A DNA stretch of 53,328 bases from Mucilaginibacter sp. (lineage in GTDB: Bacteria > Bacteroidota > Bacteroidia > Sphingobacteriales > Sphingobacteriaceae), in NCBI GenBank assembly GCA_028288125.1, contig JAQBOH010000069.1:1-53328 (forward strand), written 5' to 3'. Position numbers and translations under genes: made by a program. Positions 3,221 to 32,982 of this stretch are shown here, piece by piece (the stretch's first letter is position 1; each line of letters begins with the position of its first letter). The notes beneath the pieces were generated by a model. That model was given only the letters and a program-made list of their open reading frames with translations, was not told the origin of the DNA and did not search any database.

Positions 3221-6200
3221 CTATTCCAGCATGCTTAGTCTGAATGTATAAGCACCTGTGGATGTGGTAAGCCTTACAAAATAAACGCCGAACATCAAAC
3301 GCGTCCCATCAAATGGATAGGAATAGGTTTGACCCGCTTCGGCCTTTCCTGAATATAAACTTGCCACTTTTCTACCCATTGTATCATACACATCCAGCGT
3401 TACATTTTGTTCAGCGGATGGAACGGTGAAGCTAACGGTTGTACGTTTACCGAAAGGATTTGGATAAGCGATAAGTGTTACCACTTTCGGCGCTTCAGGT
3501 ATAGTCACCTCAAGCGTTCTTGTTTTAGCCAAAATCGGCGTTGCACAGGTGCCCAGCGTTCCGCCGTTGGCAAGCTGAACGGCGACAGCGTTAGCGCTTA
3601 TGCATAACTGCGTGTAAGGATTGCTGCTGCTTCCTGTATTGTGGCATACGGATACTTTATCGTCATTGCCGCAGCGTGCATCAATAACGGTAATAGTAAC
3701 CGAGGCACTGGCCTGGCAACCGTATTCGCTCGTTACCAGTACATTGAAGGTATAACTACCCGCCTGGGTTGGGGTAAATACCGGGTTAGCAATATTAGCG
3801 TTACTTAAGCCGGCTGACGGGCTCCATTTAAAAGTGCTTGCACCCGGCGCAGAATTCGGATTTGAAGCAGTTAATGTCAATTTTTGCGCGCCATAGCCCA
3901 ATGCTATTGTATTGGCATCTAACTTGGTACTGGTGTTATCAGCCCGGCTAACAGCGATTGAAGGGGTTGGTGTTTTACCTATTACGGTTACCGATGCTGT
4001 TCCGGTAGATACGTTGCCGTGATTATCAGTAACTGTTAACGTTACGGTGTTGGCGCCCTGTGTTGAACAATCAAATGTGGTTTTATCTAAACTCATTGAT
4101 TTAATACCACAAGCATCATTACTGCCGTTATCCACCTGCGCTGGTATAATTGTTGCGTTGCCGCCGCTCAGGTATACGGTAATGTTTTTTGTTAATACAA
4201 CCGGCGGAACATTGTCCTGTACGGTTACCACTGCTAATGCGGTGGAAACATTGCCGTGGGTGTCAGTGACGGTCAGCGTAACATTATTCGTACCAACGTT
4301 TGAACAATCAAATGAGATTTTGTCCAGGGCATAATCGGCAATAGCGCAATTATCGAACGAGCCATTGTTAACCTGCGAAGGCGTGATGGTAACTTTGCCT
4401 GTTGCGTCTAATTGAACCGTTATATTTTGCGCGATGGCAGTTGGCTTAATGTTATCCTGCACGGTTACTATCGCTGTTGCTGTGGAAGCATTGCCATTAA
4501 CGTCGGTAACCGTCAAGATCACCGTATTCGGGCCAACATTGGAGCAGGTAAATGCAGACTTATCTAAGGTATAAGTCGAGATAGTGCAATTGTCAGTTGA
4601 TCCGTTGTTGATCTGTGCCGGTGTAATAGTGGCTTTGCCCGATGCGTCCAGCTGAACAGTCAGGTTTTGAGCTAATGCAGTCGGTGGGATATTATCCTGA
4701 ACGGTAACCACAGCTGTCGCTGCCGCAGCGTTGCCATGAATATCCGTAACCGTTAGCGTAACCGTATTTGGACCTACATTTGAACAATCAAACGCCAGTT
4801 TGTTTAACGTGTAAGTAGCAATAGCGCAATTATCGGTTGATCCGTTATTGATCTGCGCCGGTGTGATAGTGGCTTTTCCTGTCGCATCCAATTGAACGGT
4901 GATGGCTTGAGCGATAGCGATCGGCGGAACATTGTCCTGAACGGTTACCACCGCTGTTGCGACAGAAGCGTTGCCATGTATATCGGTAACAGTTAAGGTT
5001 ACTGTATTTGCACCAAAGTTTGAGCAGTCAAACGTGGATTTATTCAAAGCATACGTACCGATAGCGCAATTATCGGTTGAGCCGTTGTTTATTTGTTCGG
5101 GTGTGATGGTAACCTTTCCTGTCGCGTCTAATTGAACGGTTATATTTTGCGCAATGGCAATAGGTGGGATATTATCCTGAACAGTTACTACAGCAGTTGT
5201 TGTGGAAACATTGCCGTGTGTGTCAGTAACTGTTAGGGTAACTGTATTCGTACCTACAGTTGAACAATCAAACGCTGTTTTGTCTAAGGCATAAGTCGCA
5301 ATAGCGCAATTGTCAGTGGATCCATTGTTGATTTGTGCCGGAGTGATAGTAACATTTCCCGTTGCATCAAGTTGAACTGTAATGTTTTGGGCGATCGCTG
5401 CCGGTTTGGTGGTATCCTGAACGGTTACAATCGCGCTGCCGGATGTTTGATTTCCCGCAGCATCACTTACCGTTAAGTTAACAGTATTTGCACCAACAGA
5501 TGTGCAGTCGAATGCTGATTTGTCTAAACTGTAAGTTGTAATACCTACGTTATCGGTCGAACCATTGTCAACCGAAGCCGGTGTAATGGTCGCGTTTCCG
5601 CTTGCATCAAGGTAAACGGTGATATTTTTGGTTGATAGCACCGGCGGTGTCTGATCGGTCGCTGTTACAGTAAAGCTTTGTGTTGCCTTATTTCCCGAAG
5701 GATCGGTAGCGGTTAAAGTAACGGTAGCCGGTACATTATTAACCAACGCTGTTCCCGCAGCCGGAAATTGGGTGATGCCCGAAAGAATACAATTATCTGT
5801 AGCGGTGGCTGACGAGGCGTAATCTGCCAGAAACGCGTTGCCCGTTGCGTCTAAAGCTACAATGATATTTGCTTGTGCTGACGTAAATACAGGCGGATTC
5901 AAATCCTGAACCACTACAACCTGGTCGGCTGAAGTTGCACTACAACCATTATTAGTTACAATAACATTATAGGTGCCGCTGTCCGTTGCTGTGTAAGTAG
6001 CCGAATTAGCCCCTATTATGCCATTATTGTTTTTTAACCATTCGTAGCTTAGGCCGCTACCCGTGTTTGCAGTAAATACAACTGAACCCGATGGGCAAAA
6101 ACTTAACGGGCCACTTGCTGTAACAGTTGCCGTTGGTTGAACAAAAGGGGGAGCTGTGGCTGTTATCGCACCGGGTATCCAGTTTGATGCGGTGCCCGTT

Positions 6201-17895: not shown

Positions 17896-18570
17896 TCATT
17901 CCAACAAATCGGGCCGTCTTTTCCTGGTTCGTTCTATCGCTTGTTCAAAGCGCCATTTTTCAACTTCGGGCGTATTGCCGCTTAGCAGGATGTCGGGCAC
18001 TTTATGGCCGTTCCAGTCGGCAGGGCGGGTGTAAACCGGGGCATCGAGCAAACCGTCCTGGAAGGAATCGGACAACGCCGATGTTTCGTCGGATAATACG
18101 CCCGGTATCAGCCGAACTACCGCGTCAACCAGCACAGCTGCGGGCAGTTCTCCGCCTGATAAAACATAATCGCCGATAGATATTTCGCGGGTAACATAAA
18201 TATCCCGTATGCGCTGGTCGATCCCTTTATAGTGACCGCATAAAATGATAATATTTTTCTTTATGGAAAGCTGGTTAGCCGTTGCCTGGTTAAGCGTTTC
18301 GCCATCCGGCGACATAAAAATGATCTCATCATAGCCCCGTTCGGCTTTTAGTTTTTCAATGCACCTGGCAAAGGGCTCAATCGTCATCACCATACCGCTG
18401 CCGCCGCCATAGGGGTAATCGTCAACGCTTTTTTGCTTTTGGGTTGAGTAATCGCGCAGGTTATGGACATGTATTTCGGCAATGCCCTTTTTTTGCGCAC
18501 GCTGTAAAATTGAGTGTGCAAAAGGGCTTTCCAGCAACCCCGGTAAAACAGAAACGATATCAAAACGCAT
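17896..18570 (-). CDS. trmD: tRNA (guanine-N1)-methyltransferase TrmD, 224 aa
   Basis: Transfers a methyl group from S-adenosylmethionine to N1 of G37 in tRNAs, which keeps the reading frame. The trefoil-knot SPOUT motifs are present: [38 protein letters not shown] and [16 protein letters not shown], the last carrying the knot. The C-terminal part ends in [25 protein letters not shown]. Length is normal. It is separated from rimM by about 2 kb of unrelated genes, whereas these are usually adjacent. Confidence 0.98.
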
Positions 18571-18675: not shown

Positions 18676-19404
18676 TCATTCTGGATTTTGATAGATGCCC
18701 AGTACATTTCCGAATGGGTCGGCGAAACGGGCGGTTATCTCGGGCGCGTCGCGGCCTAAGGGCTGAACTATTTTGCCGCCATGGGCGTTTACCGCGTCAA
18801 CGGCCGCTGCCGCATCATCTACCATTACATAGATCATCAATCCCTGCTCGGCCGAGGGTTTACGGTCATTCACCCACATCCCGCTTACAATGCCCACACC
18901 ATCGTCAAACGACAAGATGCCGGAGTTTCTATCTCTTAGGGGCCAGCCAAAAACGGCATGGTAAAAATTAGCGGAAGCGGCGATATCTGCAGTCGGTATT
19001 TCTACGTAGCATATTTTGCCATTGCCGCCGCCGGGATGCTGGTAGAGGCCAAAGATATTGCCGGTCGGGTCGGCAAACCAGGCCACTTCTTCCATTTCGC
19101 TAATTTTTATGCGGTTTACTATTTTACTGCCATTTGCAGTTAACAGATTCACTGTTTCGTCAAGGCTGTCGACCATGATCGAAACCACCAGGCCAGCCTC
19201 GGTATGCGGTTTTCGCCCCATCACCCATGCACCGCTTACTTCGCCAATGCCATCATCAAAAGCTGTATTGCCGTCGCCGCGTGTCCGGATGTGCCAGCCA
19301 AATATCTTTTGATAAAAAGCGGAAGATTCTTCAACATTATTTGCCGGGATCTCCAGGTAGCATATTTTGCCGTTTCCTAAAGTTGGTTCTTTTATACTAT
19401 TCAT
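18676..19404 (-). CDS. Two-domain VOC (glyoxalase-fold) protein, 242 aa
   Basis: A cytosolic protein with two vicinal-oxygen-chelate domains in tandem (about 10-120 and 125-240). Each has the motif G.GKICY.EIP, a FYQ/FYH..FGW segment, a FDDG...SG.WV strand and a final DP.GN..G.YQ.P, so it arose by internal duplication. Such proteins bind or act on small molecules through a metal; the substrate here is unknown. It lies 20 bp downstream of the HTH gene in the same direction and may be co-transcribed. Confidence 0.88.
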   Translation of the reverse strand: MNSIKEPTLGNGKICYLEIPANNVEESSAFYQKIFGWHIRTRGDGNTAFDDGIGEVSGAWVMGRKPHTEAGLVVSIMVDSLDETVNLLTANGSKIVNRIKISEMEEVAWFADPTGNIFGLYQHPGGGNGKICYVEIPTADIAASANFYHAVFGWPLRDRNSGILSFDDGVGIVSGMWVNDRKPSAEQGLMIYVMVDDAAAAVDAVNAHGGKIVQPLGRDAPEITARFADPFGNVLGIYQNPE

Positions 19405-19424
19405 AGATTTTTTCTTGACTCTAT

Positions 19425-19625
19425 TTAATCCCTGTCTTCCAGCATAAAAATTTCTTCAAGCGGTTTGCTGAATACCCTGGCGATCTTTAATGCCAGTACC
19501 GTTGATGGTACGTATTTATTGCTCTCGATGGTATTGATGGTTTGCCTTGATACGCCCACCTGTTCGGCGAGATCGGCCTGTGTGATATTTTTTATGGCAC
19601 GCTCAACCCGGATGTTATTTTTCAT
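19425..19625 (-). CDS. Xre-family HTH regulator, 66 aa
   Basis: A small DNA-binding protein of the Cro/CI type. After MKNNIRVERAIK the helix-turn-helix reads TQADLAEQVGVSRQTINTIES, followed by NKYVPS and LKIARVFSKPLEEIF. The ATG at 19625 has a good ribosome binding site, GGGAGGG, and is preferred to an upstream start that would overlap the preceding gene. It follows the membrane-protein gene by 2 bp, so the pair is translationally linked. It is the likely user of the 21-bp-spaced direct repeats upstream of the operon. Confidence 0.88.
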   Translation of the reverse strand: MKNNIRVERAIKNITQADLAEQVGVSRQTINTIESNKYVPSTVLALKIARVFSKPLEEIFMLEDRD

Positions 19626-19627
19626 GA

Positions 19628-20056
19628 TTATCCCTCCCGGCTTAACGAACTGTTCAAACGAAAAATAACCCACCTGAAACGGATGATGAAAAAGGCAAGC
19701 GGTACCAGTAAGTTTAAAAACAATATATGCTCCGTATCATTAGTGAAAACCAGGCTGATGATCAGCAATAAATAGTTCACATAGATTGCCCATTGCAATG
19801 AATCGAGGCGTAACTGGGATATCTGCTCGTCTTCAATTTTTTCTTTTGAAAAGGCAACAATGAACAAGCCAACAGCCATTAATAAAGTCGTGGTCATGAA
19901 AAACACATGGTGGCTGTTGAAAAGGTCATCGTTTACCGATCCATGGCTCAGATCAAATCCAAGCGTCCGTTTAAATACAACAACAGGAATATGGGCCAGT
20001 ATAAGTGCGTAACCCAAAAACCTGCACCAGTGTGGAAATAAGAACCGTGATTTCAT
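19628..20056 (-). CDS. Four-helix membrane protein paired with the HTH regulator, 142 aa
   Basis: An integral membrane protein with about four hydrophobic segments (near 13-30, 50-68, 91-106 and 110-125) and a charged loop. The second half (AIYVNYLLLIISLVF, HILFLNLLVPLAFFIIRFRW) is typical of DUF-type small membrane proteins paired with an Xre regulator. The start at 20056 (MKSRFLFP) is chosen over an upstream one that runs into the operator repeats. Function unknown; the gene order suggests a membrane component controlled by the HTH protein. Confidence 0.7.
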   Translation of the reverse strand: MKSRFLFPHWCRFLGYALILAHIPVVVFKRTLGFDLSHGSVNDDLFNSHHVFFMTTTLLMAVGLFIVAFSKEKIEDEQISQLRLDSLQWAIYVNYLLLIISLVFTNDTEHILFLNLLVPLAFFIIRFRWVIFRLNSSLSREG

Positions 20057-20084
20057 AACTGTCAACTTTAATTTACCAAATGTA

Positions 20085-20130
20085 AAATAAACTTTACAAA
20101 TATACAAATAAACTTTACATGATATACAAA
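20085..20130 (-). promoter_or_regulatory. Promoter and operator-like repeats of the membrane protein/HTH operon
   Basis: AAATAAACTTTACA occurs twice, at 20085-20098 and 20106-20119, exactly 21 bp apart (two helical turns). On the minus strand a Bacteroidota-type promoter lies in the same place: TTTG (20127-20130), 22 bp, then TATATTTG (20097-20104). Both copies lie within or next to the core promoter, as expected for autorepression by the HTH protein (inference). Confidence 0.65.
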
Positions 20131-20564: not shown

Positions 20565-21089
20565 TTAATCCAGGTAAATATCCAACAAGCCTTCGGGCAG
20601 GTTTACCAGTACAATTTCCTTAACTACGTCGATGCTTTTAATGATATCCTCGTTTAGCGGGAAAAGCACTTCGCAGTTTTTATAGGTAACAGCGGCTATG
20701 AATTGTTTTGGATATTCGTGCACATCTGTAATTGTGCCCAGTTCGCCTTCATCTTCATCAATGGCGGTAAATCCAACAAGGTCCATTAAGGTAAATTCGC
20801 CTTTTTTTGGTTTGGGCTTTAATTTATTAGAGAGATAAATGTGCTTTTTGACAAGCGTAGAGGCTTTTTCAATGGTATCCACATCTTCCAAAACCAGGTA
20901 AGCGGCATTTTTTTGCAGATATTTTATGGAGCTTACAAAGTATGGAACCGGTTTGCCGGCGATATCAAGGAAAATAGTTGTAAATTTTATACTGTCGAGG
21001 CCCTCGAAATCCACGTATACATGCAGTTCGCCTTTTAATCCTTTGGGTTTCAGTATGCTTCCTACCCTGAAATAACTTTCGGTATCCAT
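20565..21089 (-). CDS. rimM: 16S rRNA processing protein RimM, 174 aa
   Basis: Binds protein S19 and assists maturation of the 30S subunit head. The N-terminal beta-barrel shows YFRVGSILKPKGLKGELHV, and the C-terminal PRC-barrel shows LVGFTAIDEDEGELGTITDV, FPLNEDIIKSID and LPEGLLDIY. The ATG at 21089 (MDTESYFRVG) is chosen over an earlier start that has no family match. It follows rpsP by about 136 bp, with a 10-bp hairpin in between. Confidence 0.95.
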   Translation of the reverse strand: MDTESYFRVGSILKPKGLKGELHVYVDFEGLDSIKFTTIFLDIAGKPVPYFVSSIKYLQKNAAYLVLEDVDTIEKASTLVKKHIYLSNKLKPKPKKGEFTLMDLVGFTAIDEDEGELGTITDVHEYPKQFIAAVTYKNCEVLFPLNEDIIKSIDVVKEIVLVNLPEGLLDIYLD

Positions 21090-21225: not shown

Positions 21226-21972
21226 TTATTCAGCGCTGCCGGCTTTAGGCTCAGCAGGTGCTTCGGTTTCAGTTTCAGCAGCAGGTGTTTCAACTTCGGC
21301 TTCAGCAACAGGTGCTTCAGTTTCGGCTTCAGCGGCAGGCGTTTCAGCTTCAGCAACAGGTGCTTCTATTTCAGTTTCAGCCGCAGGCACTTCGGCTTCA
21401 GCGACAGGTGCTTCGGTTTCATCAACCGCGGCTACTTCAGCAACAGGTGCTTCAGTCTCAACTTCAGCAACCGGAGCTTCTTCTTCGGCAGGTTCTTCAA
21501 CCTCTTCGGCCGGCGGTGTATTTTTGGCTACAATAGCGGCTGCTTTTTCTTCTTTTTTCTTCGCTTCGGCAGCCAGGGCAGCTTTGCGCGCTTCGTCTTT
21601 AGCAGAAACTAAGTTTGTTTTTTTACCGGTGATCTTTCCTTCTTTCTGATCAAGCCATTGCTGGAATTTTGCTTCGGCCTGTTCCTGGGTCAAGGCGCCT
21701 TTTAGAACGCCGCCCTGTAAGTGTTTTTTGTATAAAACGCCTTTGTATGAAAGAATAGCCCGGCAGGTATCGGTTGGCTGTGCGCCATTGTTCACCCAAT
21801 CAAGGGTTTTATCGAAATTGATATCGATTGTTGCAGGGTTGGTGTTTGGATTGTATGATCCTAAACGCTCAATAAAACGCCCGTCTCGCGGAGCGCGTGC
21901 ATCGGCCACTATGATGTAATAAAAAGGTTTTCCTTTTTTACCGTGGCGCTGCAGTCTGATTTTAGTTGCCAT
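21226..21972 (-). CDS. rpsP: Ribosomal protein S16 (bS16) with long acidic tail, 248 aa
   Basis: A small-subunit ribosomal protein. Residues 1-80 are the normal S16 domain ([52 protein letters not shown]). The usual bacterial protein is about 80-100 residues, but this one goes on through a charged helix (about 100-150) into a 100-residue tail of EAPVAEAE and PAAETE units. The tail is low-complexity, strongly acidic and rich in Ala, Pro, Val and Glu, unlike the rest of the basic protein. It starts the rpsP-rimM-...-trmD-rplS order. Confidence 0.96.
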
Positions 21973-21997
21973 TTTTAAATTTTATGTATTCAACATG

Positions 21998-22031
21998 TCC
22001 CCGGAGTTCTTTCTGCGGGGATGCAAAGGTA
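21998..22031 (-). promoter_or_regulatory. rpsP promoter element and leader hairpin
   Basis: On the minus strand TACCTTTG (22024-22031) matches the Bacteroidota -7 element TAnnTTTG. The transcript would begin about 45 nt before the rpsP ATG and carry a hairpin with stem TCCCCG / CGGGGA (21998-22003 and 22016-22021). Such a hairpin in a ribosomal protein leader may be a binding site for the protein itself (inference). Confidence 0.55.
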
Positions 22032-22226
22032 ATAATAATATGGTTAATTTAAAATTAGTTGTTTAAATTAGTAGATGACTGATTGGCGCGGGTAAAGATT
22101 GCAGAATAGCAAAATAGCTTATATGGTTGATCAGCTGAAACACAGATATATATGAATGAAAAACAAACTAGATTACCGATTGTATTTTAAATAAGAGGTA
22201 GTAATTACGTACAAATTGGATATTAT

Positions 22227-23266: not shown

Positions 23267-26200
23267 TTATGTGCCGACCGGTAGTGCGACAATAAATTCG
23301 GTAAACTCCCCTTCTTCTGAGTTTACCCGGATTTGCCCGCTATGCCCTTTCACCACCATATCATAACTTAAAGATAATCCCAATCCTGTACCTTCACCAG
23401 TAGGTTTAGTCGTAAAAAAGGGCTGCATGATCTTGTCCTTAATAGCATCAGGTATGCCAATTCCATTGTCTTTTACTTTAATAACAACGCTGCCATTTTC
23501 AGATGAGGTATTTACTGTCACTTCGGGCTTATAAATTGCTCCGGATATTTTTTGTTTTTGACTTACCGCGTAAAACGCGTTGTTAAACAAATTGAGCAGT
23601 ACCCTGCCAATGTCCTGTTGTACCACATTTACTTTTGGCAAGCCAGGATCGAAATGTGAGATCATTTCGGCATTGAATGACTTGTCTTTTGCCCGGAGGC
23701 CATGATAGGAAAGTTTGATAAACTCGTCGGCCAGCACATTGATATTGGTCAGCTGCTTTTCGCCGGTGCTGGTGCGCGAATGCTGAAGCATGCCTTTTAC
23801 AATAAAGTCGGCGCGTTTGCCGTGGTGATTTATCTTTTCCTCGTTTTGCCGGATACTGTCGGCAATGGCTATTGCTTCCTCCAGGTTACCGCCTTTTAGT
23901 TCTTCTTTTAATTCGTCGATCATCTCCTGGTTTACCTCCGAAAAATTATTGACAAAGTTGAGCGGATTTTGTATCTCGTGGGCTATACCGGCAGTAAGCT
24001 CGCCAAGTGATGCCATTTTTTCGGATTGGATGAGCTGGGTTTGAGCGGCTTTGAGTCCTGTTAAAGTTTGCTCCACCTCCTGCTTGGCCGCTTCCAGCTT
24101 ATTGAAATCTTCGTACCGGGCGTAAGCTGTTGAGAAGGCGTCGGCTAACGATTGTACCAGGTTTTTTTCGTCGTCACCGAGCTGGGTTATGTTCCCAACA
24201 TATAACATCCCCTGTAAAAAAGGGAAGAAATGCAGATCGAGGCTGGTAGGCGGATGGGCTGTGAGGTATTTTTCTTCCGACGCGATGGCGCCTTGCTGCA
24301 CAAGCTGAACGGATAATTTTTTAAATTCCTCCTCATTCCAATGGACGGCGGCAAATTGTTTTTTTTGCCAGCTGGCCAACACGGTTTTGGCGATGCCGTC
24401 GGCGTTAAAACCCAATGGGAACGCGGCGATGGCTTTTCCATCGGGAGTGGAAAGATAGGAATGGATAACTTCTTGCTGTTCATCTACGATAAAAACGCCG
24501 CAGCGGATAAAAGGTATGCCTAAGGCGGTTAGCTCATTCCAAACTAAAGGCGTGATGCTTTGCAGGTCGTTGGTTGAGCGCATGGAGGCGATTTGGGCGC
24601 GCATACGGTCGAGCGAGGCCTGTCTTATTGCCCCGCGGGCACTGGCTTCTGATTTCTGCAATTCAATGTACCGCCTGAAGGTAAGATCGATTACGGAGGC
24701 AAACCGCTTTAAAATTTTCATGTCCGGTTCACCATAAGGCTTTTCTGACCACGCGTACAGGCAGCCGTCCTGGAACGGAAAAAAATGGCCGAATTGCTCG
24801 TTTCCGGTTTCCCAATCAGGGACAGAAGGAAGCGACAAGCCTGATAAAAGCTTTTCATAATACAATTTAAGCTGTTTTCCTTTTAATACCGGGAAATAAT
24901 CTTCATTGGTTGCTATCGATTGCTGTATCTTTTCCAACACGGGATGGCCGGCCAGCATTACCCAGCCCATCAGCGCCAGGTTATCACCCTCAGCAGAAGT
25001 AGTTGCTGAGTAAAGCAGCACTTTACGCGAACCCTTACCGGCTATCCCCACACCGCAGCGTAAGGGATCAATACCAAGCTTTCTTAATTCCGTAAAAACC
25101 ATGCTGGCAGTGGAAGACAAGTCCTTACTGTTATACATAGCCATGGCTTTACCCCGCACTTTTTCCAACGCCGCTTCAATTTGCGCGTCACGTGCTTGTT
25201 CTTCAGCTTGTTTAAGGTCGAGATAGCGCCTATAGGTAAGAGCAAACACCGCGGCAAACTTTTCTAATATTTTGCTTTCCTGGGGCGGGAATGGTTCCTT
25301 AGTAAAAGTGAACAACCCGCCTTCGGCGAATAAAAAACAGCTGCAATACTGCCTGGTATTAGAAGGATCACCCAAAACGGCGTAACCGGGGTCGATTTCG
25401 GGCGCATTGTAGCCTGGCGCGCCTGAAATTGCCTTATAATAACTCAAAAGGTCCGGCCCCGCCAGTTCGTACGTAAACGTAGTTTTCTTTTGTTTCCAGA
25501 TATTGAAAAGGTTTTGCCATAAGGGATGGGTGGTCATATCCAGCTTTCCGCTTCCCTGATCCACCTTGCCCTCCCCGGGCGAGGTAGCAGACCAAACCTC
25601 CATAAGCTTTGTGGACTCTTCAATGATCACAACGCCGCACCTGATGGTACTTATTCCCAGCTTATACAATTCGCTGAATACAAGGGCGGTAGCATCGCCC
25701 ACATCCCGGCTATTGTGCATGGCCATGGCTTTGCCCCGCACTTTTTCTAAAGCTGTTTCTATCCTTGCCTCGCGGGCCTGTGCTTCCGCTTTTTGCAGGT
25801 CAAGGAAACGGCGGTATGTTAAACCAAAAACGCCGGCAAACCGCTTAAACAGTTGCATCGCCTCGGCTGATAGGGGTTCATCGGTAAAAGCGTAAAGCGT
25901 GCCTTCGGGAAAAACAAATGAATTATGGAAACGTCTTTCGGGCAACGTATCTATATTCAATTGAAACGGGTAATCTGCGTATTCGCTAAGTATCCTGTAG
26001 TAATCCGCCACGTCATTACCAGCCAGGACATAGGAAAAAACGGTTTCTTGTTTTTTCCATGCGTCATATGCACCGCGCAGCAGGGGATGCAATGTCATAT
26101 CTATATAGCCTTTACTCAGGGCAGCGCTTCCATCATGGCTTGATGCGGCCGTCCATAGTTCCATTTTTTTTATGTTATGAATGATCGCAACACCACATCT

Positions 26201-29200
26201 AATTGTGGTTTCAACACCCAGCTTAACCAATTCATCAAACATTGTGATAGCCACGTCATCAATATCCTCGCTGCTATACATAGCCATCGTTTTGCTGCGC
26301 ACCCGTTCCAAAGCGGCTTCAATTCGGGCTTCCCTTGCCTGCGCTTCGGCTTGTTTCAGGTCGTTGAAGCGGGTATAGCTCATGTCGAACACTTTGGCAA
26401 AGCGAAGCAGCAGGTCAAAATGTTCATCAGATAACGGCTCGAGACTAACCAGCGTGAGGCAGCCGAAATTGTTAAACGATGCCGACAGGATCACCTGTTC
26501 GGGCGCTTTCATGCCGGTTATGACCGGGTCCGGCAAAAGTGATAACTCTGTTTCTGTAAACAGAAAATCATCCCACGTTTTTTTCACTTTTCCCTTCAGT
26601 TCATACTGCCATTTTAAAACTCGTTCCTCCCACGCATTTATATAGCTTGTATAAGCATCATGCTCGTGGTATTGTACAAGGTAATTCATCGGCTCCGCCG
26701 GCGCCTCGGAATTGGCCATCCACCACCGTGACGACTTTATTTCCGGATCAAAGATCATGATGAGGCAACGGGTAAGCACAACGTCGAGTTTGGTCAATTC
26801 GCCGAAGACCGTTCCGATCAACTCGTTTAATTCCTCCGAAGTCTGCATCGACATCGCTTTTGCCCGAACCCTTTCTAAACCCACTTCTATTTTGGCTTCG
26901 TGCGCCTGGGCTTCTGCTTGCTGCAAATCATTGAAACGGGTATAGGTTTGTTCAAAAACATTGGCAAATCTTTCCTGCGCCAAAATTATTTCCCCCGAAA
27001 CATTTTTATTGAAAGAAAATGACAGCCATCCTTTCGAAAAAAAACTGATATTGACAACCCACCGGTCTTCGGGGAAATTTGTTTCCGTTTCCATAAAACT
27101 ATTGCGCAGCTCATTATAATTTTTCAATTCTTCTCCTTCAAACTCCAATGTCAACGACTTCCGATTTGCTTTCCATGCAGTAACTGCTTTAGCCATTAAA
27201 TAGGGGTCGTCTATTGGCACATTCAGCGTTTTTAGCAAATGACTGCCATGTACAGTAGTAGATAACTCAACAACTCCTTCATTCTCATTAACTATCCCAA
27301 TTGAATTTTGTATAGCCATTTCACCCAATTCTTTCAATTGTTGAAAAAGTAAAAAAGATATTTCCGGCAGCTCGCTGCTATGGTGCATGGCCATCGTGCG
27401 ACCGCGCACACGCTCCAATGCTGCTTCAATGTTTGCCTCCCTGGCTTGTGCCTCGGCTTTTTTCAGGTCGAGATAGCGCCGGTAGGTTTGTTCGAAAACC
27501 TTACCGAAGCGCATAAATGCCGCTATCTCTGCTTCAGAATAGGGAATCCCATCAAGATTAGTAATAAACAGGGTCACGTTTTCCAGCAATACAGTGGTTG
27601 TAAACCAGCCGGGGCGGCTATAGATAAATTCTTTTGCTTCATCGGATACCCGCCCATGCTTAAAACATTCTTCAAAAAATTTATTCTTCTCTTCAAACGT
27701 CATTTCGTCGGAAAAATGATCCAACCCCTTATCCCTGGCTTCAATAAACAGGTTAAACTGCGGGGTATCGAAATATGGGATATGAACAAGGTCGGGGTGT
27801 TCATGGCCCTGATCGGCTATCCACAGATTCCAGTCATTACTTTCCCTGTAATCCATGCCAAAGCCGGCCTGGTCAACCTGTGTGCCCAATTGAACCAACT
27901 GATCATATACCACCTGGATAACCTCTCTCAGCTCCTCGCTCTTTTGCATGGCCATGGTACGCGCGCGTACGCGCTCCAATGCCAGTTGGATCTGAGATTC
28001 TTTGGCTTGTGCCTCCGCTTGCTTAATATCAGTAAAACGGGTGTAACACAGATCAAATGCTTTCGCAAACCGGTAAACTATATCGAGATTGTCTTCCGAT
28101 AAAGGGTCCGTAGTATCGGTGCGTAAATAGCCGAAGTTGTTAAACGAGTGCGACAAAATAATACTATCGAACGCAGCCATTCCTTCCTTTACCGCATTGG
28201 ATACGTACATAGTTTCCTGGCTGCTTGCGTAATAATCATGCATGGCTTTTTTTTCAGCCCCTTTTAAGTGATACACCCATTTCGGGGTTCCTTTTTTCCA
28301 TTCCTTATATGCCGCATTGGGATAAGGATGATCAAACGATTTTCTGTAAAAGGAAACCGGGGGCTGATCAGCTTCGGAATTGGCCTGCCAGAGCGTGAGG
28401 CCCACCGAATCGGCATCTGCAATAGCGATAGCACAATGCGTAAGCCCAAAATCGAGCTTGGTCAATTCTTTAAAAACCATGTCAACCATTTCGGCCAGCT
28501 CGCCAGAACTTTGCATAGCCATAGCTCTTGCGCGCACACGTTCGAGCCCCAATTGGATCTGCGATTCCCGAACCTGCGCTTCTGCTTTTAGAAGATCGAG
28601 ATAGCGGCGGTAGGTTAAGCCAAAAACACCGGTAAATCTCTTGAATATTTGTATAGCTTCCGGCGTTAACGGGTTAGGTGAAAAAGCAAAAATGGTACCC
28701 TCCGGGAAAAAGAAATCATAGTGAAATTGTTTAGCCGGTAACGATGCCATGTCAAATTGTGTGGGGTAATCAGGCGCATCGTTTATAACACGGTAATATG
28801 CGATTAAATCATCGCCGGCCATTTCGTATGAAGCATGATCTTCTTTGTTTTTCCAGGCGTTGTACAAATTTCGAAGCAGGGGGTGGGTCGTCATATCAAG
28901 GCTTCCAATGATCAAAGAAACCTGACCCTCCGGGTTATTAAACGCTGTCCACAACTCTATATGCTCCGTGTCATCTAGAATCCCAATGCCGCAGCGTATA
29001 TTTTTTTCAATGCCGAGTTTAACCAGCTCGTCAAACATAAGGGCAACGGTATCCGCAACGTCCTGGCTGCTGTGCATCGCCATGGTTTTGCTGCGCACAC
29101 GTTCGAGGGCTACCTCTATTTGTCCTTCCCGTGCTTGGGCTTCCGCTTTTTGCAAGTCGAGGAAGCGGGTATAGGTTTGTTCGAATACGGCAGCGAATCG

Positions 29201-30847
29201 TTCCAATACCGTTATTGTTTCTGCCGAAAGAGGGTGATGTGTGGTATAATTAATCCACCCCTGGGAGAAATAGCCTACGGTATGTATCCTTTGTTCCTTT
29301 AGCAGATCATCCCTGATAATTATACCCATTTCTTCCCTGCAAAAGCGAACCCACTCGTTTAGTTCCACTCCCTGCATATCTATGCTGAGTGATTTTATTT
29401 TTTCTTTCCATCCCGCATACATTTTCGACATGGTTCGCTCGTTCAACCTTGCCGAAAAGCTGATGTTGATTTGATCACCTTCCTGGTCTGTAGCCCAAAA
29501 TTTAACGATGGCATTTTCTTCATCCGGTATGCCTATTGAAATTCGGGCGGGTTGATTACCTAATTCACTTAATTGCTGAAAAAGGACAGCGGCTGTTTCG
29601 GCTAGTTCTTCACTGTGGTGCATTGCCATGGTTTTGCCGCGCACACGTTCGAGCGCCGCCTCGATCACCGCCAGGGCTTTTTGCGCTTCAATTTCATCCT
29701 TTTGCTGTTGCAGCAGCAGGTAGGCTTTTTTGCGCTGGCGGCTGTTGCGCCATTGCAGCAATGCGGCGACCAAAAGGATAAACAACCCCAAAATTAATAC
29801 GTATAGCCTTGCCTGGTTTTGATAGGCGATCTTTTGCGCGTCTATCTCTTTTTTGCGGGCATTATCCTGCGCTATTATTTCATTTATGGCCTGTATATTA
29901 CCTGCCCCAAACAAACCTTCTTTTGTTTTTGCCGCAAGCTCCCGGTAAAGCAACGCATTTTTGAAATCGTTTTTGGTTTTATAGGCCCTTACAAGCAATT
30001 CGGCCGACATCAATATAAACTTGTTATATGGCCCGAATTTCGCCTCTTGCAAACCTAACTTTGAATAAAAGATAACGGAATCAGTTTGATTCGTTTTTTC
30101 AAACACATTGGCCTGCAGAACATCGACATAAGCTACATTTCGGTGATCATGGTCGCGCAGCGCTATTTGACCTGATTTTTTTAAATGAATCAATGCAAGC
30201 GGATAATTCAGGGATTTTGCTTCAAGGCGACCCATGTCCCGCCAGAGGTAGATGGCACTGCCACTTTGCAAGTTTACTAAATCATGATATGCAATCCGGA
30301 TACAGGAATCAGCGGAATTTAGTTTACCGAGTTCAAGATAACATGAGGCAACATTGAGCGCACCCGCATCTATAAGTAACTGGTTGTTCGATCCTTTAGC
30401 AATTTCTATCATTTGCTGATAGTAACCGATCGCCTTTATGAAATCTCCCAAATCGAAATAAATCACCCCCAATAAGTTGAGCGCGCGGCCTTTTTCTGAT
30501 AAGTCATGATTTTGCTCACTAATTATTAATGATTTGATCGCAAAATCTAAAGCTTTGGGCAGGTTGCCTGTCTCCCTATATAAAAAACCTAAGCGGTTTA
30601 ATAGGTTTGCTTCGCCTTTCGGATAGTTTGTTTTTTGTAACAGTTTTAACCCGCTTGCGCCGTATTTAAACGCCGAGTCGGGTTTATTGTAAATATAATA
30701 ACTGATCAGGTCTGAAATGAGTAATATCCGGCTGGTATCCTGCTTCGCAATAGCCAATTGATGTTTTAGGCTGTCGCCTTTGCTGTTTTGGGCAAAACTT
30801 TTACCATAAATGATCGATAAAAAGGCTAATAAAATGATTTTCTTCAT
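23267..30847 (-). CDS. Giant sensor histidine kinase with ten tandem modules, about 2526 aa
   Basis: A membrane sensor kinase far longer than usual. A signal peptide (about 1-20), a periplasmic TPR array (about 30-340) and one transmembrane helix (about 348-368) are followed by ten cytoplasmic modules of about 170-195 residues (about 397-2265), each opening with LERVR..TMAM and closing with YTRF.DL.KAEAQARE. The C-terminal kinase core has His2290 in AGIAHEIQNPLNF, N-box NLFNNAFYAV, DNGIGIP and GEGTGLGLS. The module fold is unknown to me; a GAF-like sensory fold is a guess. ATG at 30847 overlaps the upstream kinase stop (TGATG), so translation is coupled. No response regulator is adjacent. Confidence 0.9.
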   Translation of the reverse strand: MKKIILLAFLSIIYGKSFAQNSKGDSLKHQLAIAKQDTSRILLISDLISYYIYNKPDSAFKYGASGLKLLQKTNYPKGEANLLNRLGFLYRETGNLPKALDFAIKSLIISEQNHDLSEKGRALNLLGVIYFDLGDFIKAIGYYQQMIEIAKGSNNQLLIDAGALNVASCYLELGKLNSADSCIRIAYHDLVNLQSGSAIYLWRDMGRLEAKSLNYPLALIHLKKSGQIALRDHDHRNVAYVDVLQANVFEKTNQTDSVIFYSKLGLQEAKFGPYNKFILMSAELLVRAYKTKNDFKNALLYRELAAKTKEGLFGAGNIQAINEIIAQDNARKKEIDAQKIAYQNQARLYVLILGLFILLVAALLQWRNSRQRKKAYLLLQQQKDEIEAQKALAVIEAALERVRGKTMAMHHSEELAETAAVLFQQLSELGNQPARISIGIPDEENAIVKFWATDQEGDQINISFSARLNERTMSKMYAGWKEKIKSLSIDMQGVELNEWVRFCREEMGIIIRDDLLKEQRIHTVGYFSQGWINYTTHHPLSAETITVLERFAAVFEQTYTRFLDLQKAEAQAREGQIEVALERVRSKTMAMHSSQDVADTVALMFDELVKLGIEKNIRCGIGILDDTEHIELWTAFNNPEGQVSLIIGSLDMTTHPLLRNLYNAWKNKEDHASYEMAGDDLIAYYRVINDAPDYPTQFDMASLPAKQFHYDFFFPEGTIFAFSPNPLTPEAIQIFKRFTGVFGLTYRRYLDLLKAEAQVRESQIQLGLERVRARAMAMQSSGELAEMVDMVFKELTKLDFGLTHCAIAIADADSVGLTLWQANSEADQPPVSFYRKSFDHPYPNAAYKEWKKGTPKWVYHLKGAEKKAMHDYYASSQETMYVSNAVKEGMAAFDSIILSHSFNNFGYLRTDTTDPLSEDNLDIVYRFAKAFDLCYTRFTDIKQAEAQAKESQIQLALERVRARTMAMQKSEELREVIQVVYDQLVQLGTQVDQAGFGMDYRESNDWNLWIADQGHEHPDLVHIPYFDTPQFNLFIEARDKGLDHFSDEMTFEEKNKFFEECFKHGRVSDEAKEFIYSRPGWFTTTVLLENVTLFITNLDGIPYSEAEIAAFMRFGKVFEQTYRRYLDLKKAEAQAREANIEAALERVRGRTMAMHHSSELPEISFLLFQQLKELGEMAIQNSIGIVNENEGVVELSTTVHGSHLLKTLNVPIDDPYLMAKAVTAWKANRKSLTLEFEGEELKNYNELRNSFMETETNFPEDRWVVNISFFSKGWLSFSFNKNVSGEIILAQERFANVFEQTYTRFNDLQQAEAQAHEAKIEVGLERVRAKAMSMQTSEELNELIGTVFGELTKLDVVLTRCLIMIFDPEIKSSRWWMANSEAPAEPMNYLVQYHEHDAYTSYINAWEERVLKWQYELKGKVKKTWDDFLFTETELSLLPDPVITGMKAPEQVILSASFNNFGCLTLVSLEPLSDEHFDLLLRFAKVFDMSYTRFNDLKQAEAQAREARIEAALERVRSKTMAMYSSEDIDDVAITMFDELVKLGVETTIRCGVAIIHNIKKMELWTAASSHDGSAALSKGYIDMTLHPLLRGAYDAWKKQETVFSYVLAGNDVADYYRILSEYADYPFQLNIDTLPERRFHNSFVFPEGTLYAFTDEPLSAEAMQLFKRFAGVFGLTYRRFLDLQKAEAQAREARIETALEKVRGKAMAMHNSRDVGDATALVFSELYKLGISTIRCGVVIIEESTKLMEVWSATSPGEGKVDQGSGKLDMTTHPLWQNLFNIWKQKKTTFTYELAGPDLLSYYKAISGAPGYNAPEIDPGYAVLGDPSNTRQYCSCFLFAEGGLFTFTKEPFPPQESKILEKFAAVFALTYRRYLDLKQAEEQARDAQIEAALEKVRGKAMAMYNSKDLSSTASMVFTELRKLGIDPLRCGVGIAGKGSRKVLLYSATTSAEGDNLALMGWVMLAGHPVLEKIQQSIATNEDYFPVLKGKQLKLYYEKLLSGLSLPSVPDWETGNEQFGHFFPFQDGCLYAWSEKPYGEPDMKILKRFASVIDLTFRRYIELQKSEASARGAIRQASLDRMRAQIASMRSTNDLQSITPLVWNELTALGIPFIRCGVFIVDEQQEVIHSYLSTPDGKAIAAFPLGFNADGIAKTVLASWQKKQFAAVHWNEEEFKKLSVQLVQQGAIASEEKYLTAHPPTSLDLHFFPFLQGMLYVGNITQLGDDEKNLVQSLADAFSTAYARYEDFNKLEAAKQEVEQTLTGLKAAQTQLIQSEKMASLGELTAGIAHEIQNPLNFVNNFSEVNQEMIDELKEELKGGNLEEAIAIADSIRQNEEKINHHGKRADFIVKGMLQHSRTSTGEKQLTNINVLADEFIKLSYHGLRAKDKSFNAEMISHFDPGLPKVNVVQQDIGRVLLNLFNNAFYAVSQKQKISGAIYKPEVTVNTSSENGSVVIKVKDNGIGIPDAIKDKIMQPFFTTKPTGEGTGLGLSLSYDMVVKGHSGQIRVNSEEGEFTEFIVALPVGT
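24065..29665 (-). repeat. Ten tandem sensory modules encoded in the giant kinase
   Basis: Module starts, read from the LERVR codons on the minus strand, lie near 29660, 29112, 28555, 27985, 27428, 26888, 26320, 25760, 25175 and 24622. By internal motifs I group them as B-A-C-D-B-C-A-A-A-A: A has RCGV and LDMTTHPLL; B has ISIG and FSQGW; C has SFNNFG and W.YxLKG; D (module 4) is unlike the rest. Modules 9 and 10 are diverged A types. Confidence 0.85.
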
Positions 30848-32982
30848 CACGAATTAGATTTGATGGGCAATGAAACAATAAATTCCGATCCCTCTCCTTC
30901 TGCACTATCAACACGGATACCTCCGCCATGCCCTTTTACTACAATATCGTAGCTTAACGACAATCCCAGTCCCGTCCCTTCGCCGGTCGGTTTGGTAGTA
31001 AAAAAAGGCTGCATGATCTTATCCTTTATTGCATCAGGAATGCCAGTACCATTATCATTCACTTTAATGATGACCTGGCCGTTTTCAGTTAAAGTGGTTG
31101 CTGTTACTTCAGGCTTATAATCCCCGCTGGTACCTTTCTGCTTTTCATGTACGGCGTAGAAAGCATTGTTAAACAGGTTGAGCAGCACCCGGCCAATATC
31201 CTGTTGTACAATATTTATTTGAGGTAGGTTTTTATCGAAATGAACCGTTAGTTCGGCATTGAACGATTTGTCTTTTGCACGCAGGCCGTGATAGGAAAGC
31301 CGCATATATTCGTCGGCTAATGCATTGATATTTGTCAGTTCTTTGGTACCGCTGTTTGCCTTGCTGTGCTGCAGCATACCTTTAACTATGCTGTCGGCGC
31401 GTTTGCCGTGGTGGGTGATCTTTTGTTCGTTCGCTTTAATTTCTGCCGTGATCGCTAAAGCCCCATCTACATTGCCCGATTTGAGTTCGCCTTCAAGTTC
31501 GTCGATCATCTCGGTATTGACCTCCGAAAAGTTATTTACAAAGTTTAACGGATTCTGAATCTCATGTGCTATGCCTGCCGTCAACTCGCCAAGCGATGCC
31601 ATTTTTTCGGACTGGATCAGTTGATTTTGGGCGGCTTTGAGGTTGTTAAGAGAGCTATTAAGCTCGGTAGTGCGTTCAGTTACTTTCTGCTCAAGTATTT
31701 CATTTTGCTTCGAGAGTATTTGCTGTTTTTCTATTTCCTGCTGCAAGTTGCGTGCCGACAATGTTTGTATTTCAACCAGTTTACTGCGAAGAAAAATTAG
31801 GTTTTGGGCAAACTCTCGTGCCAAAAGTATCGAAAGAATGATTGCGGGGGTAAGAAAAGCCAAGGCCACTTCAAAGCAGATAAGCAAATACGGTTGCAGT
31901 AAAGTAAAATTAGCAATATTAAATGATATGAAAAAAAGCAGGGCGATCATGATACCTGTTAAGAATAGCCCGGCGCCGCTCTTCTTTTCTCGCATGGCTT
32001 TAACTGATATCCTGATAATTTCGAGATAACAAACAATAGCAAAAATAGCCAGTATATGTTCATCTTGAGCATTGTCACCAATAAACTGAATAATGATAAC
32101 CACAAAGGAAAGTGCCGACAGACAATTAAAGTATACGCTCCGCACATAACCGAAAAACGCATAGGCCATCGCCATAAAAAAAATAAAATCTAAGGGTGCT
32201 GCTATATTAAAGACGACCGTCATAAAGGTGGCCCATCCTGTGCTTCGCAGCATTGGTATTAGTAGCCCGTCGGAGAGTGTGACAAGCTGCATAAGGGCAT
32301 AAAGTGCAAGATAGAGGTTTACCTTTCGTTCGCGGTTAAAAAAGTAAATGGCAAGTTGTAGAATGGCCAACAGCATAAAACCGCCCGATACCCATGAGCG
32401 GGTGGTGTAGAAATCGACTTTGTCGAAAAAAGAATCCCAGGCTTGTTCAACCTGCTTAAATGTGGCGACTATAACCGGGTTGCCATAGCCAACTATCATG
32501 TTTGAGCGATTGAACGAATACCTGATAGCAACATATTGACGCGGAGCATCTGTAAGTTGCAGGGTTAACGGTTCGCGTACAGAACGAACGGCTTGCTCCC
32601 TGGTATTTTCGGCACCTACCTGGCCCACCTTGCGGACCAACACACCATTGAAATAAATTTCTGCTGCGCCATATTGGTTTACTATAAGCGCAACAAACTT
32701 ATTCTGCAATGCTGGCGACACATTGATGGCAAGCCGGAACCAGCTGATCTGCGCATTGCGTACCTGTGGTAAAAAATGTTGTTCCTGTGTAAGGTCAACA
32801 TGCTGCCAACCACTATCGTTAAAAGCTGTATCAGCCCAGTTTGGATCGTCGCCGGCGTGAAATTTCCATTGATTGGTTACGTTTGCCGGAAGGGAATTAA
32901 GATTAAAATTGCTATTATTTTGAGATTGCCCGTAAGCAGACGAAAAAAACAAAAGAAGGAATGCAAACAAAAGTTTTTTCAT
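30847..32982 (-). CDS. 7TM-DISM sensor histidine kinase, 711 aa
   Basis: A membrane sensor kinase. A signal peptide (1-18) is followed by a periplasmic jelly-roll sensor domain (about 20-165, WKFHAGDDPNWADTAF), seven transmembrane helices (about 180-400; 7TMR-DISM type), a coiled coil and a kinase core with His473 in AGIAHEIQNPLNF, N-box NLFNNAFYAV, DNGTGIP and GEGTGLGLS. Its core is nearly identical in protein and DNA to the kinase next upstream. Start ATG overlaps the preceding stop (ATGA), and its own stop overlaps the giant kinase start. Confidence 0.93.
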   Translation of the reverse strand: MKKLLFAFLLLFFSSAYGQSQNNSNFNLNSLPANVTNQWKFHAGDDPNWADTAFNDSGWQHVDLTQEQHFLPQVRNAQISWFRLAINVSPALQNKFVALIVNQYGAAEIYFNGVLVRKVGQVGAENTREQAVRSVREPLTLQLTDAPRQYVAIRYSFNRSNMIVGYGNPVIVATFKQVEQAWDSFFDKVDFYTTRSWVSGGFMLLAILQLAIYFFNRERKVNLYLALYALMQLVTLSDGLLIPMLRSTGWATFMTVVFNIAAPLDFIFFMAMAYAFFGYVRSVYFNCLSALSFVVIIIQFIGDNAQDEHILAIFAIVCYLEIIRISVKAMREKKSGAGLFLTGIMIALLFFISFNIANFTLLQPYLLICFEVALAFLTPAIILSILLAREFAQNLIFLRSKLVEIQTLSARNLQQEIEKQQILSKQNEILEQKVTERTTELNSSLNNLKAAQNQLIQSEKMASLGELTAGIAHEIQNPLNFVNNFSEVNTEMIDELEGELKSGNVDGALAITAEIKANEQKITHHGKRADSIVKGMLQHSKANSGTKELTNINALADEYMRLSYHGLRAKDKSFNAELTVHFDKNLPQINIVQQDIGRVLLNLFNNAFYAVHEKQKGTSGDYKPEVTATTLTENGQVIIKVNDNGTGIPDAIKDKIMQPFFTTKPTGEGTGLGLSLSYDIVVKGHGGGIRVDSAEGEGSEFIVSLPIKSNS

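Follow-up and report, generated by a model that had tools for sequence, protein, structure and literature searches.

Gene content and organization of the rpsP locus

The window, i.e., the whole 53,328-nucleotide stretch of Mucilaginibacter sp. DNA that was analysed, encodes ribosomal protein bS16 (gene rpsP) in a single, uninterrupted open reading frame (ORF) that begins with ATG. The following features were assigned at and around this gene:

21973 to 22031, reverse strand: promoter-like element (TACCTTTG) and conserved two-hairpin 5' leader of rpsP (alignments; covariance model R1)
21226 to 21972, reverse strand: bS16 (rpsP) ORF, 248 codons
21718 to 21972, reverse strand: bS16 globular domain, residues 1 to 85 (PF00886; TIGR00002; omega 0.014 over 14 pairs)
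21520 to 21717, reverse strand: conserved C-terminal extension, residues 86 to 151, mostly a long charged helix (NF011094; pLDDT 77 to 96; omega 0.069)
21229 to 21519, reverse strand: acidic low-complexity tail, residues 152 to 248, 97 aa (tandem repeats; codon layout; net charge -31)
20565 to 21089, reverse strand: rimM, directly downstream of rpsP (ORF; PF24986 and PF01782 on the translation from 21092)
18676 to 20107, reverse strand: three small ORFs between rimM and trmD (one each without a Pfam match, with an HTH and with a two-stretch glyoxalase fold)
17896 to 18570, reverse strand: trmD (PF01746, 208.5 bits)

The Pfam S16 domain (PF00886) covered residues 9 to 67 with 85.9 bits (cut-off 27), and the bS16 model TIGR00002 matched the protein with 98.1 bits (cut-off 45.3). 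One S16 was found in the window genome, the assembly of which is 79.89% complete and comprises 206 contigs. Excerpts of a 2024 review (PMC10931766) term S16 essential. For rimM, the ATG at 21089 was taken as the start; a longer frame, beginning with GTG, is open as far as 21176. Both rimM and trmD lie downstream of rpsP on the same strand, the arrangement by which the operon was recognized.

Elsewhere in the window, a 2527-aa protein (23267 to 30850, reverse strand) combines N-terminal TPR repeats with a C-terminal histidine kinase ATPase, and its middle consists of repeated segments beginning ALERVR..TMAM with almost no Pfam match. A tandem array at 4176 to 5389 has a 240-bp unit in 5.1 copies (71% matches).

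A conserved leader upstream of rpsP

Directly upstream of rpsP lie, in this order, a TAnnTTTG promoter-like element, a hairpin (H1, CCCCG..CGGGG) and ATGTTGAATACATAA. A second hairpin (H2) reads AUGU-UGAAU-ACAU, and 11 nt separate the end of ACAT from the start codon in the window. Of 161 rpsP upstream regions examined, 126 contained the word ATGTTGAANACATAA. Covariance model R1, built from 47 leaders, matched the window genome once (72.6 bits). Within the genus it was found in 23 of 25 genomes, this one included; the two misses were 58% and 71% complete. The phylum sample was searched with strict filters, under which weak matches can be lost: all eight sampled genomes of the window's family carried one copy, each directly upstream of S16, and none was found among the other genomes (0/288).

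An S16 leader in Flavobacteria is proposed in excerpts of PMC7247131, and the 2024 review states, in the excerpted text, that information on how the rpsP operon is regulated is lacking. With the Rfam model S16-Flavobacteria (RF03138), window positions 21900 to 22200 gave no match up to E 10, and 10 further loci, six of them from the window's family, gave none at the gathering score; it scored above gathering in three of eight other Bacteroidota rpsP loci.

RNAalifold returned H2 only, with no both-sided change. In the structure proposed here, 84.5% of cells were paired and the covariation score was matched by none of 500 shuffles; 428 of the 500, however, had at least as many pairs changed on both sides, and slid versions of the structure had covariation of 0.028 to 0.056 versus 0.050 for the proposed one. 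With so little variation in the element, covariation support is weak, and the case therefore rests on conservation and position. From these, a new S16 leader specific to the window's family is a plausible candidate. A four-codon upstream ORF within the leader (ATG TTG AAT ACA TAA) was not favoured: in four loci (L023, L025, L085 and L168) TAT replaces the stop and the ATGT..ACAT pairing stays.

Five-base loops occur both in the Flavobacteria-type leader hairpin (CGNGU) and in H2 of the window (UGAAU). If common to the two lineages, a YGNRY loop could mark the same putative S16-binding site in each. This loop was sought upstream of rpsP at 52 loci outside the family; the stretch was located in 33 (not in 19), and eight of the 33 matched. 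Five matches fell at the hairpin expected from RF03138 (L196, L197, L199, L209 and L037; families f3, f4 and f8). Among the others, L202 (f2) has a 4-bp A/T stem, and those at L175 and L181 lie far from the start.

Architecture of the S16 protein and its tail

In an AlphaFold prediction made with 79 sequences, the domain was confident, a long helix spanned residues 96 to 151, and pLDDT was below 50 from residue 156 to 248. An alignment of 79 sequences has many invariant columns in the C-terminal extension. The order given in the original prediction, an S16 domain followed by a charged helix and an acidic low-complexity tail, was thereby borne out. The long-form S16 model NF011094 was matched by residues 1 to 184 with 253 bits (curated cut-off 209).

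The 97 tail residues include 31 Glu, 28 Ala, 13 Pro, 11 Val and 9 Thr; the net charge is -31 for the tail and -18 for the whole protein. By codon layout the units are E(A/T)P(V/A)AE-like. Tandem Repeats Finder reported periods of 48 bp (4.5 copies) and 27 bp (5.8 copies) in the tail-coding DNA, with scores of at most 192. Copies in the longer arrays had only 71 to 76% matches and are therefore diverged duplications. Judged from these repeats, the tail has grown about threefold, to 97 residues, as units of about 7 to 16 residues were duplicated in tandem and in frame. No second copy of the tail module was found in the window genome: a tail query, of the low-complexity kind that may miss matches, hit only S16. 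Among other ribosomal proteins considered for a tail, L25 is present without a long acidic one, and searches of the incomplete genome turned up neither L17 nor L21. Read in the +1 frame, the tail-coding stretch (21229 to 21519, reverse strand) has two stops only and gives a Lys/Leu-rich peptide; a one-base slip would yield a basic tail.

Tail presence and length across relatives

An acidic tail was present in frame in all 79 complete relatives, with a net charge of -4 to -35 and a shortest length of 19 residues. The median S16 among them was 180 aa long. Most of the nearest named relatives belong to Mucilaginibacter. Comparison of tail length in related genomes, which the original prediction had proposed, set the 97 residues of the window tail against a median of 30 in this set. 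The protein had been put at about 2.5 times the usual length; this holds against short-form S16 only (many PDB chains have about 80 to 90 aa, making it about three times as long), and it is 1.4 times the median length of the 79 relatives. That having such a tail is unusual was not supported, in view of its presence in every one of these relatives, of the existence of a model for the type (NF011094) and of a 2019 publication excerpted below (PMC6821194).

Tails of at least 60 residues occurred in five of the 79 complete relatives, among them L065, whose 251-aa S16 exceeds the window protein. S16 from 20 genomes of the same genus, partly overlapping the set of 79, measured 171 to 195 aa. For the wider family, length was ranked by stop-to-stop frames: 249 genomes had a match, and among the 150 listed matches that were used, six frames were at least as long as that of the window (251). 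No S16 match was found in two of 251 family genomes. L062, which is the closest relative and belongs to a different assembly record, has an in-frame tail of the same kind that shares the EPKAGSAE end and is 27 residues shorter. The longest form came from another genus (L168, genome G093): an S16 of 520 aa with a 369-residue tail of net charge -128. It contains nine units of 87 bp that differ by no more than one base; with repeats so nearly identical, assembly could have altered their number.

In family f17 of the phylum sample, all seven fetched S16 proteins (L050, L051, L055 to L058 and L061) had a short basic extension and no acidic tail. Their net charge was +14 to +17 (7/7), and that of one S16 from another family was +18. 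Tail counts left out 19 fetched loci for which the motif script returned no S16, and a further 19 proteins that lack the tail anchor; L121 was truncated by the contig end.

Evolution of tail length and composition

Tail length differed in 14 of the 28 closest independent pairs, by 1 to 57 residues, in agreement with the original prediction that the coding repeats make length change easy. Omega was estimated from the 14 pairs of equal tail length. The tail came out at 0.47 (bootstrap 0.15 to 0.67), as against 0.069 in the remainder of the conserved part and 0.014 in the domain. Tail omega was thus about seven times as high as in the helix part and about 33 times as high as in the domain. Strict purifying selection on the tail was considered and rejected, as a first omega of 0.22 (16 pairs) was biased by filtering the pairs on tail identity and the unfiltered value was 0.47.

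Composition was compared among 135 distinct proteins, 20 of whose loci had been picked for long frames, so that their length distribution is not a fair sample. Tail charge was linear with tail length (r -0.98), the acidic fraction was 0.37 ± 0.04, and Trp, Phe, Tyr, Cys, Met and His were absent (0 of 5860 residues). Only one of 63 tail differences touched Lys, Arg or one of these six residues, versus 13.6% of the amino-acid changes that a single base substitution can produce (P 0.001, calculated without a mutation-bias model). On these comparisons, tail composition is held far more tightly than sequence, while length drifts.

Charge balance and explanations for the tail

Among 93 distinct proteins (relatives, including those of the same genus, plus the window protein), median charges were +12 for the body, -11 for the tail and +1 for the whole, which suggests that the ordinary tail may offset the charge of the body. 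This balance is broken in the window protein and in other long tails. Charge offset cannot explain the extra tail length, because the whole window protein stands at -18. Exact neutrality as a phylum-wide rule was ruled out by the f17 proteins (7/7 at +14 to +17). Since the offset fails for the window protein and across the phylum, surplus length is read as a tolerated by-product of slippage, with composition maintained.

The best explanation, which we give about an even chance of being right, is a disordered polyanion that acts by composition, first offsetting the +12 body and then forming a bristle on the 30S, its surplus length mostly tolerated. The tail would act through composition rather than sequence. 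As an unstructured polyanion, it would offset the +12 of the RNA-binding body, leading to fewer wrong RNA contacts and less aggregation before assembly. After assembly it would hang off the 30S as a soluble bristle at the end of the helix. Length beyond the usual 30 residues or so would be mostly tolerated and not selected.

A possible but somewhat less probable alternative is that the tail is a neutral passenger: replication slippage would lengthen a disordered tail that is of no use at such a length, and selection would purge only sticky, basic or out-of-frame changes. The length differences in half of the closest pairs (14/28, up to 57 residues), the raised tail omega (about seven times the helix part and 33 times the domain) and the 369-residue tail tolerated in L168 all agree with it. 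So does the Lys/Leu-rich +1 frame, because of which frameshifts should be purged even if length has no function. Against it stand the strict composition and an acidic tail of at least 19 residues in 79 of 79 complete relatives; from these two together it follows that some tail is kept.

Three further readings concern what the tail might do or what becomes of it. The S16 tail could be a length-tunable polyanionic brush on the small subunit, in which repeat slippage lets lineages repeatedly reset ribosome surface charge and crowding behaviour. We consider this unlikely; if true, the gene involved would be an essential one, of which the window genome showed a single copy, and tail charge per ribosome would span values between a median near -12 and an extreme of -128.

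Acidic tails of other proteins can bind defined partners. That the S16 tail is such a platform, for a cation, a chaperone or a translation or hibernation factor, is decidedly doubtful. The bS16 extension that contacts uS4 in Cutibacterium acnes (excerpts of PMC10085706) speaks for it, whereas the order of units and the length vary between close relatives and the 135 tails hold no aromatic residue, Cys, Met or His. These absences (0/5860) argue against a specific docking motif, although loose electrostatic binding is compatible with them. The sole good candidate for a contact is the conserved helix, not the tail.

It is very improbable that the tail is made and then cut by a protease, leaving a shorter form on mature ribosomes: three checked Bacteroidota S16 chains do lack residues beyond positions 86 to 119, but missing residues are equally expected from disorder. 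Least credible of all is that a frameshift or repeat misassembly made the tail. In its favour, the assembly is incomplete (79.89%, 206 contigs) and repeats are prone to misassembly; against it, the repeat copies are distinguishable (71 to 76% matches in the longer arrays), L062 in its separate assembly record has a like in-frame tail with the same C-terminal end, and 79 of 79 complete relatives carry an acidic tail. A frameshift at the tail junction, which the original prediction had named as its refuter, is very unlikely judging from the single uninterrupted ORF and the in-frame tails of L062 and all 79 relatives.

Core ribosomal proteins are usually regarded as rigid in length. In S16, an essential ribosomal protein, the make-up of the tail is held while its length shifts between close relatives, reaching a 520-aa S16. 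S16 tails thus offer a clean natural series in which to ask whether disordered ribosomal tails act by composition.

Comparison with known S16 proteins

One of the nearest described forms is the 186-position S16 model NF011094 (PRK14521), which shares the domain, the helix and the start of the tail with the window protein; the latter runs 64 residues past the match through repeat expansion. Two Bacteroidota bS16 proteins of known structure, from Flavobacterium johnsoniae (7jil_u, 188 aa) and Porphyromonas gingivalis (9i5v_c/9i5x_c, 192 aa), align to window residues 1 to 180 and 1 to 200, respectively, with the acidic end included, but are 56 to 60 residues shorter. Their S16 coordinates cover residues 2 to 86 in 7jil (85 residues), 2 to 119 in 9i5v (118) and 2 to 99 in 9i5x (97), and the acidic tail is absent from all three models. 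The pLDDT below 50 and this absence from three solved relatives fit a tail that is predicted to be disordered.

A literature search found no paper on repeat-length change of S16 within a lineage, and S16 is not mentioned in PMC10039652 or PMC9976891. According to excerpts of PMC6821194 (2019), S16 is among the bacterial proteins richest in low-complexity regions (186), with 157 of 187 made mostly of Ala and Glu. The window tail is of the same kind with a slightly different mix: by a plain residue count, Ala plus Glu make up 59 of its 97 residues (61%), below the more than 70% used in that study. Change in tail length, the helix and a Mucilaginibacter-type lineage are not treated in the excerpted text.

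The C. acnes bS16, as described in excerpts of PMC10085706, is also extended, and its far C-terminus is likewise not seen in the map; it differs in belonging to another phylum, and its extension, 65 residues long, binds uS4 at a place where h17 is short. Set beside these systems, the window tail is a long example of a generally described feature and not a new kind, and its function is a prediction.
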